Shown in pieces: positions 2,152-18,876 of a DNA stretch of 64,000 bases. Each line of letters begins with the position of its first letter. Positions within the stretch are counted from its first letter, which is position 1. The position numbers were made by a program, and so were the translations under genes. Source of the DNA: Collinsella sp. BG-O-102 (GTDB lineage Bacteria > Actinomycetota > Coriobacteriia > Coriobacteriales > Coriobacteriaceae); NCBI RefSeq assembly GCF_023656745.1, contig NZ_JAMOKO010000011.1:33473-97472 (forward strand). Reading direction: 5' to 3'. The notes beneath the pieces were generated by a model. It made no database searches. It was not told where the DNA came from and saw nothing but the letters and a program-made list of their open reading frames with translations.

Positions 2152-2213
2152 GGGAACGGTACGGGACAGTGCGCAGTAGTGCGAGCTGTCCGTCGTGGTA
2201 GATCTAAATAAAC

Positions 2214-2244
2214 GGTGGGACGGCTGCAAAAGAGCCGCCCCACC
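2214..2244 (+). terminator. Stem-loop downstream of zinc-ribbon gene
   Basis: A 12-bp stem (GGTGGGACGGCT with AGCCGCCCCACC, one G-U pair) closes a 7-base loop 62 bases after the stop codon. No U-run follows, so its termination strength is uncertain; the hairpin at 2326 is better. Confidence 0.45.
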
Positions 2245-2325
2245 GGGCAAAATCAAGGTGTGCCGCGGAACCCGCTCCTCAGTCGGTCAACTTTGGAAGC
2301 GCGGGCAACGCAGGTGCTAATGTCT

Positions 2326-2353
2326 AAAGGGCCGGGGCAACCGGCCCTTTTCT
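2326..2353 (+). terminator. Probable intrinsic terminator
   Basis: AAAGGGCCGG and CCGGCCCTTT form a 10-bp stem with a 5-base loop followed by TTCT. It is the best terminator in the roughly 310-base gap between the zinc-ribbon gene and the convergent ADP-ribosylglycohydrolase; the A-rich 5' arm means it could work on both strands. Nothing else recognisable lies in the gap. Confidence 0.6.
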
Positions 2354-11372: not shown

Positions 11373-11523
11373 CGATTTCCCGGGGTCGGGGAAAGACGGA
11401 TCCTTTTGCTCGGCATTCCATCCTCACCCTTTTCTATCGCAAACCATAGCTTTTACCTTGGGCTTCGCCTGTGTGCGGGGCCCTTTTGCGTGATACCATA
11501 CTGACAGTAATAATCGATGGCCT

Positions 11524-11696
11524 AGATGGTGGTGCGGAGACGCACGAATGCGTGGTTTTCCTGCGCGTTTGGGAGAATCGGGGTGCAAGTCCCCGGCTGT
11601 ACCAGTAACCGTAATTCCTCTTGGCCCGGGATAGTCGCGTCGCAGATCGGACGGCGCGCCCGGGTCGGTAAGGTTAAGTCGGATCGCCTCCCATCT
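11524..11696 (+). promoter_or_regulatory. Cobalamin (adenosylcobalamin-type) riboswitch
   Basis: The core resembles the cobalamin aptamer (RF00174-type): GGGA at 11571, GGGTGCAAGTCCCCGGCTGT at 11581-11600, then CCAGTAACCGTAA at 11602-11614, and the 3' box AAGTCGGATCGCCTCCC at 11676-11692. An AGATGG (11524-11529)/CCATCT (11691-11696) helix closes the aptamer as P1, and GGCCCGGG/CCCGGGTC forms a peripheral stem. It lies about 140 bases before the DUF4430 surface-protein gene, so that operon is probably repressed by cobalamin. Whether control is at transcription or translation is not clear from the platform sequence. Confidence 0.87.
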
Positions 11697-11839
11697 TGTA
11701 CGCGGCCGCGGCGCATGCCGCCGGTACGCGTTGGGCTCTGGAGGGAAGGGGGACCCCGATGGGGGTACTCGAGCGCAATGTGCGCGATGACGTGGGGCAG
11801 CCGCTGGGCAATGCTCCAAGTTCAGACAATAGGAGACAA

Positions 11840-14800
11840 ATGGATATGTTTGAGGACGAGTGCCAGCGCGCCTCGTGGCGTCGCCATGGAGCGATTGCCC
11901 GTGGCGTAGCCAAGCGCGGTCTGGTGGCGTTCCTGGCTTTTGCCATGGCTTTTGGCACCACGCCGGCGCAACTTTGGGCCGAGGGCGCCGAGGGCATTGC
12001 CGAGGCCGTCGCTTCGCAGGATGCGGAGCCGACGGGGGAAGATAGTTCCACGGCGACCGATGCTGACCAGGCGGCGACCGAGGATGAGAAGCCTGCAAAG
12101 GGCGCGGATACGAGTGATTCTGCCGCTTCTGCTGGCGCGCAGGAGAGCGGGTCGCAGGATGCTTCGCAGCCCGCTGCAAAAGTGGAGGCTGCCGCCGAGG
12201 CAAGTGCCAAAGTCGAGTCCGCTGTGCCGAGCGATGATGACGAGTCGGATATCGCTACCGCAGCATACGTGACGGTCGACTCCGTCAGTCTACTGAATGC
12301 CAAGGACCAAGATATCGTTTGGGGCTCTGCGTCCAATACTGCTCTCAAGGTTGGCGATACGATTAAGGTCGGCGCCTACTACGAGGACGACTGGGGCGAC
12401 GACGAGGAGATTCTCGATTCCGAGTATGATTGCCTTACGTACCAGTGGTACGTGGGCGACAAGCAGAGTTCCGCCCCCACTGCCTCAGGCTACACGCCCA
12501 TCGAAGGCGCAACGTCGCGTGAGTTCAAGCTCACGGCCGCTCAGGCGGGCAAGTATGTTGCCTGCAAGGTGACCTATGGCTCGAGCAAGTGGGACAACAA
12601 GTTCACCGCAAGCACGAAGCTGGCGATTGTCGAGGACGAAGGCGCCACCACGCCTGCGACGCCCGATGCCAAGACGCTTGCCGAGGCCAAGCAGAAGCTC
12701 TCCACTTGGAAGCCGAGCCCGGTCTATGGCACCGACACCAATATCGTCGACATGCTCTCGGCCAAGCTCAAGGCGCTCGGCTACGCGAACGTGAAGCCGA
12801 CTCTCAAGTCTGTGACCTTCGGTGCGACCGACCCGGTCCAGCAGGGTGGCATCGCTGCAGATGGCACCATCACGTACTTCTTCCTGTCCAATGCGGAGAA
12901 GACCGTATCCGCGGATTGGTCGGTGCTGCGCCAGTTCAAACCTACTTATACGCTGACGCTCGGCAGCGAAATCGTCGAATTCACTCCCGAGTTCAATTCG
13001 ACGCTCGCGTGGGATCAAGCCAAGGTTGAAACGTATCTGAGCGAACAGCTCGACGCCGCGACTCTTACCGCCTCGGTCAAGGCGGGCATCGCGCCTTCGA
13101 CTGCCAAGGAAGAGGTGCTTCCCGGCGCGCTCTATGTGGGAGGCAAGAAGGTTGCCGACCTCACCTGGACGAGCGATTCGTCTGCGGCCAAGCTGACTTT
13201 GAGCTACGATTCCAATTACAACACGGTCTACAAGGTCGCCTACACTCATGGCAATGGCGACAAAAACGTGACGTTTACCGCGCGGGCAACACTATTTGTC
13301 CCTGGTTATGGCAACCCTCCCTCGACTGCAATTACGCGCGACTACCCGGTCAAGGTAGCCTCCAAGTCTGCCGAGGACATCGCTGCCGAGAAGGCCGAGC
13401 TCGAGGCCGCGCTTGCCAAGATTGACGGCCTGGTGAAGGACTATGCCGACTCGAGCAAGAGCGTTGACCTCTCGGCGATCGAGGGCGACTTCATCTTGCC
13501 CACGACGCGCAAGATCGGTGCCGGGTCTGCTAAGCTCTCGTATTCTTCCAATAACGAGTCCGTGGCAAAGGTTAACGGCTATCGCGTCATCGTCACCCGT
13601 GATATCGCCGGTGGCTCCAACACCGCCACCATTACGGCAACGCTCACGCGCGATGGCATCACCGCCACGCGCGACATCACCGTGACGGTCAAGCCCATCG
13701 ACGAGTCCGAGATCGACGCTGCCGTAGCACAGATGCAGGCCGTCAAGGATGCCTACGCCACTTCAATCCTGGGCGCCAACACTTCCGCTCATGCGGTGAG
13801 TGCGAATCTCAGTCCCTGGAGTTCCGCCATGGTCGCCGAGGACGGCACCATCTCGTACTCCAAGACGTACCAGACCGGCCAGATTCATGCCGACGATCTG
13901 CCTGGCTATGATGACATGTCCGGCACCAATTGGCGCACGTACCGCTCGAGCGACACTTCTGTCATCGCGGACGAGACGCTGCGCGTGACCCAGCCCGAGG
14001 CTGACACGCTCGTCACGGTGGAGAGCTCGCTTACCTATGAGAAGTATGAGGCGCTCGCCAAAGCTCATCCGGATAACGCCAAGCTTCAGAGCCTGGTCAA
14101 TCAGTCGGTTAAAGCGACGTATCGTGTGGTGGGTACGACCGACCACTCCGATCCTCAGATTTCGGTCAACTTCAAGCTTGTGGGTGTTAGCGCCGACGGC
14201 AGCGATGAGGTTTGGTTCGACGGCGCGCAGAGCGTTGGCTACGGCTCAACTGCCGATGCCCTGATTGAGCAGATCTTGGATGCCCAGGGTCTCGCTCACA
14301 CCTCCGGTACCACGGAATATGGTTACTATCTCTCCGATATCACCTCAAGCGATGGCCGTACGCTTGGCTGGGATGCAGCCACGCGTAAGTACTGGCAGCT
14401 TTTCGTAAACGGTAAAGCATCCGAGGTTGGCGCCAGCAGTGTGACGCTTGGCGCGGGCGACTCTATCGCTTTGTACTACTCTGCCCTTGGCGCAAGCCTT
14501 GATGATGCGAATAAGGCCACCGTTAAGGCGTCGGTGAGCTTCATTGGGCCAGATGAGAATGGCGGCAACTCCGTGTGGGCGTCTGCCGCTGACGTCAAGA
14601 TGTCTGATGGATCCACGGCAGCCGACCTTACCGAGCAGCAGCTCAAGGCAGCAGGTCTCACCTATGACAGCCAGGGTACTTCTGGGACTTCGTTCTACCT
14701 TGCCAGCATTACGCGCGCAGGCAAGACGTATCGCTGGGACCAGTCGACCGGCAGGTACTGGCAGCTCTATGTCAACGGCGAGAAGTCTCAAAAGATGGCG

Positions 14801-16744
14801 GGCCAGGTTACCCTCAAGCCGGGAGACAAGCTTCAGTGGGTTTACGCTGCAGATAGCGAGAAGCCCCTGGAGGGCCCCATTGTCAATCCCTTTGCTCCCC
14901 GTCCGGACTGGACCGCAAGCTGGAACGGCTTTGGCAATGCGGGCAGCACGACGCTTGTGAATACCCCGACGCCTACCGAGTCGGCTACGGAGCTGTGGAA
15001 GGTCAATCTGGCAACGGCAGCCGACAAGTGGGTTTCGCTGGGCGACCCCATCATTGCGGGCGGCTACGTTTTCGTTACCACGAACTCTGAGCTCGTCAAG
15101 ATCGATGGCACGGGCAAAGTTGTCGCGCGTGTTTCCAAGGGCGGCACCACTTCGTATTTTTCGCGTCCTGTATACGCGGATGGTCTGATCATCTCGGCAA
15201 ACGACGACGGTTCTGTGTACGCCTTCTCCGCTGAGACGCTTGAATGCGTGTGGAAGACGCCTGCGCTCAAGGCTCCTGCTGCTGGCGGGCGCTATCAGGC
15301 AAATTCGACTATGACGGTGGCAAACGGCTGCGTGTATGCCGAGTTTGTCACGGGCGCTGGCGCTTTTGGCACCGCAACTGGCGGAGCTATGCTTTGCATC
15401 GACATTGCGACGGGCAAGATCGTCTGGTCGGACGTCACCACAAAGAGCGGCTCCTCCACTGGTGAGGGTTATTACTGGGCGGGCGCTGCCGCTTCTGATT
15501 CCGATCTTGTTATCGGCGACGAGGGCGGTTGCGTGAAACTCATCGACGGCAAGACCGGTAAGGTCAAGTCTTCTGTCGGCCTGTCCGGCAATCCCGTGCG
15601 CGCAACGATCGTCTCTGCTGGCACCGAGAACGGTAACCCGGTCTTCTTGGCGGTTGGTCGCCAGCCGGCAACGCTCTATAAGATTGTGCGTGAGGGCGAC
15701 ACGCTTCGTATTGCCAGCTCTTGCGCATTTGCGAACACTTCGACTTCGACGCCGGCCGTGGCAAACGGCAAGGCCTATATCGGCGGAAGCGACGCTTCGA
15801 ACAACGGCCAGTTCACCGTTATCGACCTTGCGTCTATGACGGTCGAAAAGTCGTTTGACATGGGAAAATATGCCGAGGTCAAGGCTTCACCGATTGCATC
15901 CGTGCAGGCTGGCGGCGTTTATGTCTACTATACGTGCAACAAGACTCCCGGCGCCTTGTACTGCTTCAACCAGTTGACCGGCGAGGTTGCGGAGATCTAT
16001 ACGCCGTCCGGATCCAATGCGAATTACTGCACCGCAAGTGTAATCGCGGATGCCAGGGGCAATCTCTACTACACCAATGATTCCGGCACGCTCTTTGCTC
16101 TCAAGGCGGTTCCGGGCTTTACGGTTTCCTTTGACGCGCGCGGCGGCAGCGCGGTCCCCAGCGCGCTGACCGCGCAGAACAAGACCATGGTCGCCCCTGC
16201 GAATCCCGAGCGCGCCGGCTTCACCTTCGCCGGCTGGTACAAGGACGCCGCGTGCACCCAGGCCTGGAACTTCGCCAAGGACGTCGTGACGGCCGATATG
16301 ACGCTCTACGCCAAGTGGACCAAGAATGCCGTTACCCCTGGCGGTAACGGTGGCTCTGGCTCCAATGGCGGCAATGGCGGCTCGGGTAATGCCGGTGCTG
16401 GTTCTGGCTCCGGTAACGGCACAAACGGCCAGCAGACTGGCGGTGCTGTTGCTCCGGGTCAGAAGCCGGTGTCTGCCACGACTACAACGGAGACCAAGGA
16501 CGGCAAGGATTCCAAGAAGGATTCCGACAAGGGCGACAAGAAGGACAGCAAGAAGTCTGACAAGAAGTCCGGCAAGTCCAGCTCCAAGTCCGATACGGGC
16601 TCGTCTGCTACGACCGCTGCTAAGAAGTCTGCCGAGGCTTCCGCGCAGGAGTCTGGCGTCAATCCGCTCGCCATCGTTGGTGTGACGGCTGGCGTGGTCG
16701 GACTCGCCGTCATCGGTGTGTTCGTGCTCACCAAGCGTCGGTAG
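11840..16744 (+). CDS. Large membrane-anchored surface protein with two transcobalamin-like DUF4430 domains and a PQQ-type propeller
   Basis: 1634 residues from ATG 11840 (AGGAGA just upstream); the frame stays open into the riboswitch, but that extension has no ribosome site. Layout: signal segment about 24-47, low-complexity Ala/Ser/Asp stretch to 135, Ig-like region about 140-275, repeated beta-rich and helical segments to 765, DUF4430-like domains at about 770-883 (YWQLFVNGKASEVG) and 892-1005 (YWQLYVNGEKSQKM), an eight-bladed-type PQQ/WD propeller about 1049-1423, an InlB B-repeat (FAGWYKDAACTQAWNFAKD) about 1430-1495, Gly/Ser/Lys linker, and a C-terminal TM ending TKRR. No LPXTG motif. 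DUF4430 is the fold of the transcobalamin C-terminal domain; with the riboswitch this suggests cobalamin capture at the cell surface. Confidence 0.85.
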   Translation: MDMFEDECQRASWRRHGAIARGVAKRGLVAFLAFAMAFGTTPAQLWAEGAEGIAEAVASQDAEPTGEDSSTATDADQAATEDEKPAKGADTSDSAASAGAQESGSQDASQPAAKVEAAAEASAKVESAVPSDDDESDIATAAYVTVDSVSLLNAKDQDIVWGSASNTALKVGDTIKVGAYYEDDWGDDEEILDSEYDCLTYQWYVGDKQSSAPTASGYTPIEGATSREFKLTAAQAGKYVACKVTYGSSKWDNKFTASTKLAIVEDEGATTPATPDAKTLAEAKQKLSTWKPSPVYGTDTNIVDMLSAKLKALGYANVKPTLKSVTFGATDPVQQGGIAADGTITYFFLSNAEKTVSADWSVLRQFKPTYTLTLGSEIVEFTPEFNSTLAWDQAKVETYLSEQLDAATLTASVKAGIAPSTAKEEVLPGALYVGGKKVADLTWTSDSSAAKLTLSYDSNYNTVYKVAYTHGNGDKNVTFTARATLFVPGYGNPPSTAITRDYPVKVASKSAEDIAAEKAELEAALAKIDGLVKDYADSSKSVDLSAIEGDFILPTTRKIGAGSAKLSYSSNNESVAKVNGYRVIVTRDIAGGSNTATITATLTRDGITATRDITVTVKPIDESEIDAAVAQMQAVKDAYATSILGANTSAHAVSANLSPWSSAMVAEDGTISYSKTYQTGQIHADDLPGYDDMSGTNWRTYRSSDTSVIADETLRVTQPEADTLVTVESSLTYEKYEALAKAHPDNAKLQSLVNQSVKATYRVVGTTDHSDPQISVNFKLVGVSADGSDEVWFDGAQSVGYGSTADALIEQILDAQGLAHTSGTTEYGYYLSDITSSDGRTLGWDAATRKYWQLFVNGKASEVGASSVTLGAGDSIALYYSALGASLDDANKATVKASVSFIGPDENGGNSVWASAADVKMSDGSTAADLTEQQLKAAGLTYDSQGTSGTSFYLASITRAGKTYRWDQSTGRYWQLYVNGEKSQKMAGQVTLKPGDKLQWVYAADSEKPLEGPIVNPFAPRPDWTASWNGFGNAGSTTLVNTPTPTESATELWKVNLATAADKWVSLGDPIIAGGYVFVTTNSELVKIDGTGKVVARVSKGGTTSYFSRPVYADGLIISANDDGSVYAFSAETLECVWKTPALKAPAAGGRYQANSTMTVANGCVYAEFVTGAGAFGTATGGAMLCIDIATGKIVWSDVTTKSGSSTGEGYYWAGAAASDSDLVIGDEGGCVKLIDGKTGKVKSSVGLSGNPVRATIVSAGTENGNPVFLAVGRQPATLYKIVREGDTLRIASSCAFANTSTSTPAVANGKAYIGGSDASNNGQFTVIDLASMTVEKSFDMGKYAEVKASPIASVQAGGVYVYYTCNKTPGALYCFNQLTGEVAEIYTPSGSNANYCTASVIADARGNLYYTNDSGTLFALKAVPGFTVSFDARGGSAVPSALTAQNKTMVAPANPERAGFTFAGWYKDAACTQAWNFAKDVVTADMTLYAKWTKNAVTPGGNGGSGSNGGNGGSGNAGAGSGSGNGTNGQQTGGAVAPGQKPVSATTTTETKDGKDSKKDSDKGDKKDSKKSDKKSGKSSSKSDTGSSATTAAKKSAEASAQESGVNPLAIVGVTAGVVGLAVIGVFVLTKRR

Positions 16745-16753
16745 GTGAGGGCC

Positions 16754-17614
16754 GTGTCCAATAAACCACAGGACGCCGACTCCAAGCAGCCCGACTCGTC
16801 GTTCATTCAGCTCGACGATGCAAAGCAAAAGGGCGCCGCTTCGGCGGCGTCCGCCCCTCGGCGCAAGGCGCTTGTTGGCGTCCTGACAGCCGCCTGTATT
16901 GCACTCATCGTCGTCTCGTTGGGTTTTGTACACCCCTCTGCCAGCGGTGCATGGTCTATCGATTGGATTGCTCAGGCCGTGACAGGGGAGAGCGTTGTTG
17001 ACAAGGATGCGTCGGTTTCCGGCTCGACTACCACTTCGGGCAAGGCTGCGCCCAAGGACTCCAAATCCTCGGACAATGCGAAGGGCGGGTCGAAGGACTC
17101 AAAAAAGGATTCGAAGGAGAAGAAGTCCGAAGGCAAGGGCGGCAAGAAGTCCAACAACACGTCTGCCGAACAGGGTTCGGAATCCACCGGCGGGTCTAGC
17201 TCTTCTGACGGCGCCTCTTCGGGCGCTGGCTCGGCGACCGGTGGTGGGTCTGCATCTAACGGCGGCAATGCCTCGTCGGGTAACCAGGGCGGCTCACAGC
17301 AGCCTGGCTACGTCACAGTGACGGTTTCGGTCACATCGAGCGCCGTGGGCAATCCTGTGTCTTCTGGCGGCACCTTCACCTTTAACGAGGGCGCTACGGT
17401 CTACGATGCCCTGTGCGCTCTGGGCCTTTCCGTCAATGCGCACGGCTCGTCATACGGAACGTATGTTGCCGCTATTGGCGGTCTAGCCGAGAAGGAGCAC
17501 GGCAGCACGAGCGGCTGGATGTACTCCGTTAACGGTGTGGCGCCCAACACGGCGTGCAGCAACTACGTCCTATCTAACGGCGACAGAGTTGTCTGGTATT
17601 ACGTAACGGGCTAA
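16754..17614 (+). CDS. Membrane-anchored single DUF4430 (transcobalamin-like) protein
   Basis: 286 residues from GTG 16754; GTG 16745, next to the previous stop, is an alternative, and GGTGAGG lies just before 16754. One TM/signal-anchor near residues 38-60 (ALVGVLTAACIALIVVSLGF) is followed by a long Lys/Ser/Gly/Asp linker that would span the wall, and a C-terminal DUF4430 domain (about 187-286) with FTFNEGATVYDALCALGLSV and GWMYSVNGVAPN, a segment matching the xWxxxVNG core of the domains in the preceding protein. The genes are 9 bases apart or less, so they share the riboswitch-controlled transcript. It may hand over or co-bind the ligand. Ligand identity is inferred. Confidence 0.82.
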   Translation: MSNKPQDADSKQPDSSFIQLDDAKQKGAASAASAPRRKALVGVLTAACIALIVVSLGFVHPSASGAWSIDWIAQAVTGESVVDKDASVSGSTTTSGKAAPKDSKSSDNAKGGSKDSKKDSKEKKSEGKGGKKSNNTSAEQGSESTGGSSSSDGASSGAGSATGGGSASNGGNASSGNQGGSQQPGYVTVTVSVTSSAVGNPVSSGGTFTFNEGATVYDALCALGLSVNAHGSSYGTYVAAIGGLAEKEHGSTSGWMYSVNGVAPNTACSNYVLSNGDRVVWYYVTG

Positions 17615-17634: not shown

Positions 17635-17674
17635 AAACGGGCGGTTCGGATAAACATCCGAGCCGCCCGTTTTT
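17635..17674 (+). terminator. Intrinsic terminator of the DUF4430 operon
   Basis: A 15-bp stem (AACGGGCGGTTCGGA with TCCGAGCCGCCCGTT) and 6-base loop followed by TTT, 20 bases after the stop codon. Clear rho-independent terminator. Confidence 0.9.
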
Positions 17675-17774: not shown

Positions 17775-18182
17775 CTACGACTGCGCGCCCTCGAGGAAAA
17801 AGCGACGGCTAAAGTAGTTGTACCAGGTGACCAGGAACGTTGCGATGGCCTTCATGGCCTGGTAGCCGATGCTCAAAAACGTGACGCCCACAAACATGTA
17901 CAGGTCGTTGAGACCCAGGCCAATCACCGACAGGATGGTGAAGATCGTGAACTCGCGCTTGCGGCTCATGCCCTCGCGGTGGTCGAACACGTACTTCATG
18001 CTGAGCCAGTAGTTAACCACGACGGATGTGGTAAACGAGACCGTGGTGCTCATCAAAAAGTCGAGGTGGAACAGCTCGACGAGCGCAATGAGCATACCCC
18101 AGTCGATGCCAAAGGAGATAAGTCCCACGACAGCGAACTTGAGGAACTGCTTGGTATGAGGTTGTGCCAGTGCCTTGCGCAC
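17775..18182 (-). CDS. GtrA family membrane protein, copy 1
   Basis: 135 residues from GTG 18182; the frame extends to TTG 18263 but neither start has a strong ribosome site, so the N-terminus is uncertain. GtrA proteins have four TM helices and help translocate undecaprenyl-linked sugars or teichoic-acid/polysaccharide substituents. The first TM shows the family pattern FLKFAVVGLISFGIDWGML and the second NYWLSMKYVFDHREG, which is the conserved N-x(n)-K-x-W/Y-VF signature, with the last TM followed by SRRFFLEGAQS. A paralogue lies just upstream. No GtrB glycosyltransferase is in the window. Confidence 0.87.
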   Translation of the reverse strand: MRKALAQPHTKQFLKFAVVGLISFGIDWGMLIALVELFHLDFLMSTTVSFTTSVVVNYWLSMKYVFDHREGMSRKREFTIFTILSVIGLGLNDLYMFVGVTFLSIGYQAMKAIATFLVTWYNYFSRRFFLEGAQS

Positions 18183-18402
18183 GTAATCACATCCAATGCG
18201 TTGATGAATCGAGCAACGAGATACTTTAGAGCTTTTGCATGGGAAACGTAAGGTCTTTGGCAAGAACTATACGAACTCGCCAAATACTCAAGAGGTAATC
18301 CGCAAACGTTGCAAATCTTCCCGTAAACGAGCAAGGCCCACGAGCAACGCAGCACTCGACGCGCGTCATCCGCAGGTCCCGTAGTGCATCGAGGAGACCG
18401 GG

Positions 18403-18798
18403 CTACTTGGTCTGCTCGCCCTCCAGGAAAATTTTGCGCGTTACAAAGTTGTAGACCATGACCAGTGCGGTGGCGCAAATCTTGGCGATATTGGCCTCGA
18501 GGCCCAGGCCGGCGTTGAGGGCCAGCACGATGCCGTCGTTGAGCGCCAGGCCAATAACGGACAACACGACAAAGATGATGAACTCGCGGCGGCGGCTCAT
18601 GCCCTCCTTGTGTGCAAACACGTACTTCATGCTCGCGACGTAGTTAAAGATGAGCGAGACGATAAAGCCGCTGGTGTTGGCGATCAGGATATTGAGGCCC
18701 AGACCGTAGTGGAGCAGATTCATGATGCCAAAGTCGATGACGGTGGCAACGACGCCGACGACGCCAAACTTCATGATCTGCGCAAGGAGCTTTTGCAT
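18403..18798 (-). CDS. GtrA family membrane protein, copy 2
   Basis: 131 residues from ATG 18798, with a modest AGGTG site. Four TM helices: IMKFGVVGVVATVIDFGIMN first, then the conserved NYVASMKYVFAHKEGMSRRRE loop, and a C-terminal NFVTRKIFLEGEQTK. It is clearly homologous to the next GtrA gene (matching F/YNYxxSMKYVF and SRRREF). The 220 bases between the two contain no ORF I trust. As a tandem duplication this may supply two flippases for different cell-surface sugars, or act as a heterodimer. Upstream of it lies the FBPase gene on the same strand. Confidence 0.87.
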   Translation of the reverse strand: MQKLLAQIMKFGVVGVVATVIDFGIMNLLHYGLGLNILIANTSGFIVSLIFNYVASMKYVFAHKEGMSRRREFIIFVVLSVIGLALNDGIVLALNAGLGLEANIAKICATALVMVYNFVTRKIFLEGEQTK

Positions 18799-18876
18799 GA
18801 CACCTGCCTTAGGGTGGCGCCGCAGCGCCGTGGGGATGGCAAACTCAGCAAGTTTAGCCAAACCCCGTAGGCGGGG

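Follow-up and report, generated by a model that had tools for sequence, protein, structure and literature searches.

Surface proteins with SLBB domains in Gram-positive bacteria were proposed as vitamin B12 scavengers by Burroughs et al. in 2007 (PMC1796856; here and below, papers are cited from excerpts of their text). That text describes a fusion to a propeller in a Clostridium, SLBB genes occurring in pairs and CbiO/CbiQ-like neighbours, gives a clade range of animals, low-GC Gram-positives, planctomycetes and euryarchaea, and states that the bearers usually lack key B12 synthesis enzymes, a pattern that fits less well here. Studies of extracellular B12 capture have dealt with gut Bacteroides (PMC6143338, PMC10404256, PMC13398666), where the surface proteins BtuG and BtuH belong to riboswitch-bearing corrinoid uptake loci and BtuG1 has a propeller (PMC6143338, PMC10404256, PMC13398666, PMC8941943). 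Among importers, the energy-coupling factor (ECF) transporter ECF-CbrT (6FNP) carries vitamin B12, and in such importers the S component is described as the protein that binds the substrate (PMC5997447). The locus considered here lies in a stretch of 64,000 nucleotides from Collinsella sp. BG-O-102 (the window), on contig C3 of a genome of 2.27 Mb in 45 contigs, and consists of a predicted cobalamin riboswitch followed by genes for two DUF4430 proteins, P1 and P2. Among named loci, those resembling it most belong to Collinsella and other Coriobacteriia, and a Collinsella-1 RNA in the window agrees with that genus.

We predict that P1 and P2, controlled by the riboswitch, catch corrinoids outside the cell and hand them to a CbrT-like ECF importer, a reading to which we give a probability of roughly 0.75. 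Corrinoid capture had been proposed for this locus in an earlier reading of the DNA (the original prediction), and it is supported as a predicted function by the fold of P2, by the linkage to ECF genes in relatives and by the targets of the riboswitch. Two of the refuting conditions set for it were examined, lack of a covariance-model match and lack of a structural match to the transcobalamin domain, and neither spoke against it. When B12 is plentiful the predicted riboswitch would likely shut off translation of the two-gene operon, ligand binding leading L5 of the aptamer to pair with a downstream CTGG so that the ribosome-binding site would be covered. The predicted anchored proteins P1 and P2 would bind corrinoid extracellularly, at the position where transcobalamin binds it, and the cargo would probably be handed to a CbrT-like S component that in this genome is encoded on another contig.

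The leader and its predicted riboswitch

The leader contains the following elements.

11494..11499, plus strand: TACCAT, predicted -10 promoter box
11520..11698, plus strand: predicted cobalamin-class riboswitch aptamer (R1 model, RF01689 below gathering, covariation)
11602..11605, plus strand: CCAG of L5, predicted kissing partner of a downstream CTGG
11738..11741, plus strand: CTGG, predicted partner of L5, overlapping the GGAGG of the ribosome-binding site

A cobalamin-riboswitch core had been placed at 11524-11696, and these ends proved exact, as the closing helix P1 of the aptamer is AGATGG/CCATCT at 11524-11529 and 11691-11696. Our covariance model R1, made from ten aligned leaders (that of the window included) and a seven-helix structure, scores 163.8 bits at 11520-11698, the window sequence being part of the training set. 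In the ten-leader alignment 14 of 30 pairs have one or more sequences in which both partners are altered, paired cells amount to 92.3% whereas each slid control gives at most 45.5%, and the P6 helix is invariant. The alignment thus has the conserved core with P3-P6 junction and the covarying helices of the Rfam cobalamin riboswitch clan (CL00101), and the ligand is probably cobalamin. Besides the window itself, R1 matches 15 of 19 named Coriobacteriia loci (all except L037, L045, L050 and L052) and leaves the unrelated L056 unmatched; these 16 matches comprise ten training sequences, five Collinsella near copies and one independent match, in Slackia (L039, 79.3 bits). The core of the window is identical to that of L047.

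The covariance-model check suggested with the original prediction came out strong in relatives, through R1, covariation and Rfam, whose gathering cut-off (its detection limit) was exceeded by both related leaders tried (Enorma massiliensis L043, 38.9 bits; a Slackia metagenome-assembled genome, L046, 40.0 bits), but weak for the window copy, which stays below gathering. Searched whole at the gathering cut-offs, the window gives Collinsella-1 RNA as its sole entry, so that a cobalamin riboswitch is undecided from Rfam alone. The 3′ alignment of RF01689 at 11652-11669, a look-alike in the P6 extension, was rejected, J6/3 being placed at 11676-11688 by the shorter leaders L043 and L046. Part of this extension (11642-11654, plus strand), GCAGATCGGACGG, is common to Collinsella and Enorma leaders, resembles J6/3, AAGTCGGATCGCC, and misled the Rfam alignment.

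All of 27 leaders have a -10-like TANNAT in the 65-nt stretch 5′ of the aptamer, against a mean of 4.8 in shuffles; a consensus promoter scan listed no site at 11494-11499 and three sites overall, compared with 2.8 in shuffles. All of 32 leaders with distinct cores have CTGG, the complement of CCAG in L5, no more than 110 nt downstream (mean of 16.4 in shuffles), and 23 of them have the stricter G(G/C)YYCTGG (mean of 1.1), these leaders having been chosen by CCAG and many being close Collinsella relatives. Because CCAG and CTGG are invariant and the leaders were picked in this way, the kissing pair offers no covariation. By eye, a ribosome-binding site and start codon mostly stand directly 3′ of the CTGG motif, and the likely start of P1 was moved accordingly to ATG 11759, 17 nt 3′ of the CTGG lying ahead of the ribosome-binding site. 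The first gene is real, but comparison favours 1661 residues over the 1634 given originally; ATG 11840, the start of the shorter form, also has a ribosome-binding site and may be used. The placement of CTGG would fit translational control through a kissing loop.

The reach of this riboswitch type was surveyed in 197 genomes of the order, with search filters that lose weak R1 matches. DUF4430 occurs in 159 genomes and R1 in 111 (130 matches). At least 80 of the 130 matches, in at least 77 of the 111 genomes, have a same-strand DUF4430 within 10 kb downstream (150 DUF4430 places listed), and for one of the 130 a listed DUF4430 lies in the 10 kb upstream or on the opposite strand. Inspection of 40 of the remaining 50 loci with a home-made DUF4430 profile found a downstream same-strand domain in 19, which brings the total to at least 99 of 130. 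R1 was trained on leaders of DUF4430 genes, so the model favours such genes.

The other 21 inspected loci had their targets sorted by Pfam or by eye. Pfam identifies CbiK (266.7 bits) with Peripla_BP_2 at L109, CobU (112.8 bits) with Peripla_BP_2 at L119, Peripla_BP_2 with FecCD at L117, Peripla_BP_2 at L115 and L118, and a RACo corrinoid activator (250.2 bits) at L121:253-1593 (plus strand). L123 is BtuFCD-like by eye, ECF T and S genes are present at L116, the P1-like gene at L093 is interrupted by a contig end, and L105, L110, L120, L122, L127, L129, L131 and L132 are truncated or unassigned. Leaders of this kind before BtuF-, CbiK-, CobU- and RACo-type genes are a genome context that favours the corrinoid reading, and the match 5′ of the RACo-type activator suggests that the riboswitch type may also reach corrinoid use, beyond uptake. 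Two genomes have a tandem pair of R1 matches before one DUF4430 operon (G064, C1:3639161-3639595; G098, C23:263541-263976).

The two predicted surface proteins

The operon is laid out as follows; signal peptide and anchors were read from the sequence.

11759..16744, plus strand: protein 1 (P1), 1661 residues from ATG 11759 or 1634 from ATG 11840
11918..11980, plus strand: hydrophobic stretch, predicted signal peptide of P1
14273..14479, plus strand: DUF4430 domain 1 of P1 (profile)
14609..14848, plus strand: DUF4430 domain 2 of P1 (profile)
14972..16111, plus strand: predicted PQQ-type beta-propeller of P1, eight-bladed by matches
16118..16315, plus strand: Flg_new / InlB-type repeat of P1 (Pfam 70.6 bits, cut-off 27)
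16670..16729, plus strand: predicted C-terminal transmembrane anchor of P1, then TKRR
16754..17614, plus strand: protein 2 (P2), 286 residues from GTG 16754 or 289 from GTG 16745, starting directly after the P1 stop
16868..16930, plus strand: predicted N-terminal transmembrane anchor of P2
17390..17605, plus strand: DUF4430 domain of P2, modelled with a transcobalamin beta-domain fold
17636..17671, plus strand: intrinsic terminator hairpin, -30.2 kcal/mol, z -8.4, then a U run

The architecture had largely been anticipated. Both DUF4430-type domains of the first protein (two stretches, 80 bits, cut-off 23.8) and its InlB repeat lie above the Pfam cut-offs, the 286-residue second protein has its predicted anchor and, after a low-complexity linker, one DUF4430 domain (72.4 bits), and a single terminator does follow the co-directional pair. 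A whole-genome search for DUF4430 returned three domains, every one of them in this operon. The PQQ-type propeller appears in the predicted structure model, but its Pfam score of 39.1 bits is below the cut-off of 133. The model matches YxaL, Rv3035, BamB and designed propellers; BtuG is unnamed among the 50 best matches listed, which excludes nothing. We suppose that the propeller serves for docking or as a scaffold. Among the close Collinsella relatives L047, L048, L049, L053 and L054 the length of P1 ranges from about 1.2 to 2.45 thousand residues, and the detected DUF4430 copies differ.

The expected match to transcobalamin was obtained for the P2 domain by predicted fold but not by sequence profile. 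In a fold comparison confined to P2, the DUF4430 model is a transcobalamin-type beta-domain, a beta-grasp as in the C-terminal domain of transcobalamin; the closest folds include B12-bound structures, and sequence identity to the human B12 carriers is 14-19%. A detailed picture can be drawn in which the two anchored transcobalamin-type proteins would close on a corrinoid like the halves of intrinsic factor, the eight-bladed propeller would replace the toroid as dock and the cargo would be relayed to a CbrT-like S component, making an ECF importer with its own capture arm; we offer this picture tentatively, at odds clearly short of even.

That the riboswitch is genuine and the DUF4430 proteins bind some other ligand that is scarce under B12 limitation, for example cobalt or another tetrapyrrole, we regard as improbable, since B12-bound structures are among the closest folds and since all three S components tried, beside such pairs or in the window's own genome, match CbrT.

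Two features of the window stand apart from the operon. After it, on the minus strand at 17775-18861, lie two similar short membrane proteins in tandem, GtrA-like by eye only, and at 2155-2347 (plus strand) is the Collinsella-1 RNA (RF01700), full length with 185.1 bits.

Importers in relatives and in the window's genome

All 19 named Coriobacteriia loci encode a P1-like protein with one or more DUF4430 domains, followed by a frame with a C-terminal DUF4430, as detected with our own profile. In seven of them (L037, L039, L040, L045, L046, L050 and L052) genes for a T-like and an S component stand directly downstream of the pair, with an R1 match at L039, L040 and L046. The order R1 match, DUF4430, T, S recurs in eight more genomes (L100, L101, L104, L106, L107, L108, L114 and L124), and at L100, L101 and L108 small DUF4430 proteins of 170-235 residues lie directly 5′ of the ECF genes, behind the R1 match. 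None of eight T proteins tried matches a Pfam family, and they are named T components because their profile, run against the PDB, matches three EcfT chains only (that of 6fnp included; E 1.3e-8 to 5.8e-7). Profile searches confirmed the double ATPase of L039, of L050 and of the window's genome. For the S components, 6fnp_A was the sole significant match in the PDB (L039, E 1.4e-8; L050, E 3.2e-7; own genome, E 1e-5). An S component related to CbrT thus occurs with EcfT and ATPases, the composition of ECF-CbrT as far as sequence can tell.

The same linkage bears on the suggestion that P1 and P2 are adhesins, whose DUF4430, propeller and InlB parts would bind a host or partner surface while the riboswitch merely times their display. 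P1 is long and anchored by sequence, and in four other genomes of the window's genus (L125, L126, L128 and L130) weak R1 matches of 31.5-34.4 bits stand 5′ of a surface protein of about 1.5 thousand residues, with FIVAR in both of the two tried; no second R1 match of this type is listed for the window's genome. Linkage to a CbrT-like ECF importer in relatives argues for transport, however, as do the small DUF4430 proteins directly before ECF genes, and we consider adhesion very improbable.

In the window's own genome, the importer that P1 and P2 would serve is presumably the one on contig C45, where a CbrT-like S component (49.6% identity with its Slackia L039 counterpart across 280 residues) is encoded with a T component and an ATPase (double ABC_tran, 160.5 bits). 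A MetH-like enzyme is also encoded (B12-binding, 97.1 bits; otherwise named by eye). Corrinoid capture might instead be true with a different recipient, a BtuFCD-type ATP-binding cassette transporter on contig C41 (Peripla_BP_2 107 bits, FecCD 275 bits, ABC_tran 106 bits), whose BtuF-, BtuC- and BtuD-like genes are preceded by a second, weak R1 match (L061:17548-17655, minus strand; 21.2 bits, E 7e-4 over 107,503 bases). That match is absent from the whole-genome R1 listing at E up to 0.01 and from the Rfam results up to E 1, and it is ECF genes that follow the P1-P2 pair in seven of the 19 named loci of relatives; we therefore consider the BtuFCD-type recipient unlikely, though a serious candidate. 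A weak RF00174 match on C41 was rejected as leader of a cbiF operon, as it is on the other strand and faces the BtuFCD-type operon.

Several observations weigh against delivery of riboswitch-controlled corrinoid capture to a CbrT-like ECF importer. The window leader scores 30.5 bits with RF01689 (E 4.2e-5, 651 nt searched; gathering 36.5) and 14.7 bits with RF00174 (gathering 31.5), both below gathering. Folding the 3′ part of the leader, the expression platform, by itself gives no gain in stability over shuffled sequences (z 0.28), and we accordingly propose no sequestering hairpin. DUF4430 is commoner than R1 across the order, R1 and the 32 leaders carry the selection noted above, and the four named loci where R1 is missing are all ECF-linked. 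Neither R1 nor Rfam finds a riboswitch beside the ECF genes on C45, and that importer is unlinked to P1-P2, so we make no claim of co-regulation in this genome. The BtuFCD-type system, behind its weak R1 match, is a competing partner, and opposite its operon lie a cbiF-like gene (by eye) and a CbiD gene, so that scavenging need not be the only source of B12. On the protein side, the sequence profile of the P2 domain did not reach transcobalamin in the PDB (best match 3u7z, E 0.022). Transcobalamin holds B12 between two domains (PMC1796856), and Pfam finds no alpha/alpha toroid in P1 or P2, the structure model having left out the first 769 residues of P1; both are accordingly filed only as transcobalamin-like beta-domain proteins.

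Comparison with known systems

In open-access titles and abstract starts we saw no study of such a capture system in gut Actinobacteria, nor in the open-access literature an experimental test of SLBB-type B12 scavenging. Collinsella aerofaciens is reported to need B12 for growth despite having synthesis genes (PMC6593275), which a conserved uptake route would fit. Such a route would also offer a B12-binding domain of the human type that can be purified from a bacterial source, and a direct test of the 2007 prediction. If the tentative picture of an ECF importer with its own capture arm is true, it would be a Gram-positive answer to BtuG and BtuH, with Coriobacteriia competing with the host for B12 by the host's own type of binding domain.

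A close likeness is to the SLBB proteins of Burroughs et al., which are likewise secreted or anchored DUF4430-type proteins with a propeller fusion, an operon paralogue, neighbouring CbiO/CbiQ-like genes and a predicted role in B12 scavenging (PMC1796856). The available text of that paper does not mention riboswitches or Collinsella, and the present analysis adds the connection to a riboswitch, the wide occurrence in Coriobacteriia, a CbrT-like importer and the fold comparison for P2. With human transcobalamin, haptocorrin and intrinsic factor the DUF4430 domain of P2 shares its fold as modelled, whereas P1 and P2 have predicted anchors, a propeller (in P1), no toroid by Pfam and the low sequence identity given above.

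BtuH is a DUF4465 protein, and no DUF4465 domain was matched here in Pfam at E up to 1. The DUF4465 proteins of B. theta have been named as B12 binders (PMC13398666). BtuG and BtuH resemble P1 and P2 in being surface proteins from riboswitch-bearing loci, with a propeller in BtuG1 and in P1, but they are Bacteroides lipoproteins that partner the TonB-dependent BtuB. As for ECF-CbrT, the S components encoded after P1-P2 pairs and in the window's own genome match CbrT and the T profile matches EcfT; unlike in the described transporter, extracellular capture proteins would here act in front of the importer, and as substrate binding is ascribed to the S component itself (PMC5997447), an importer with an extracellular partner of its own would be arranged in a new way.

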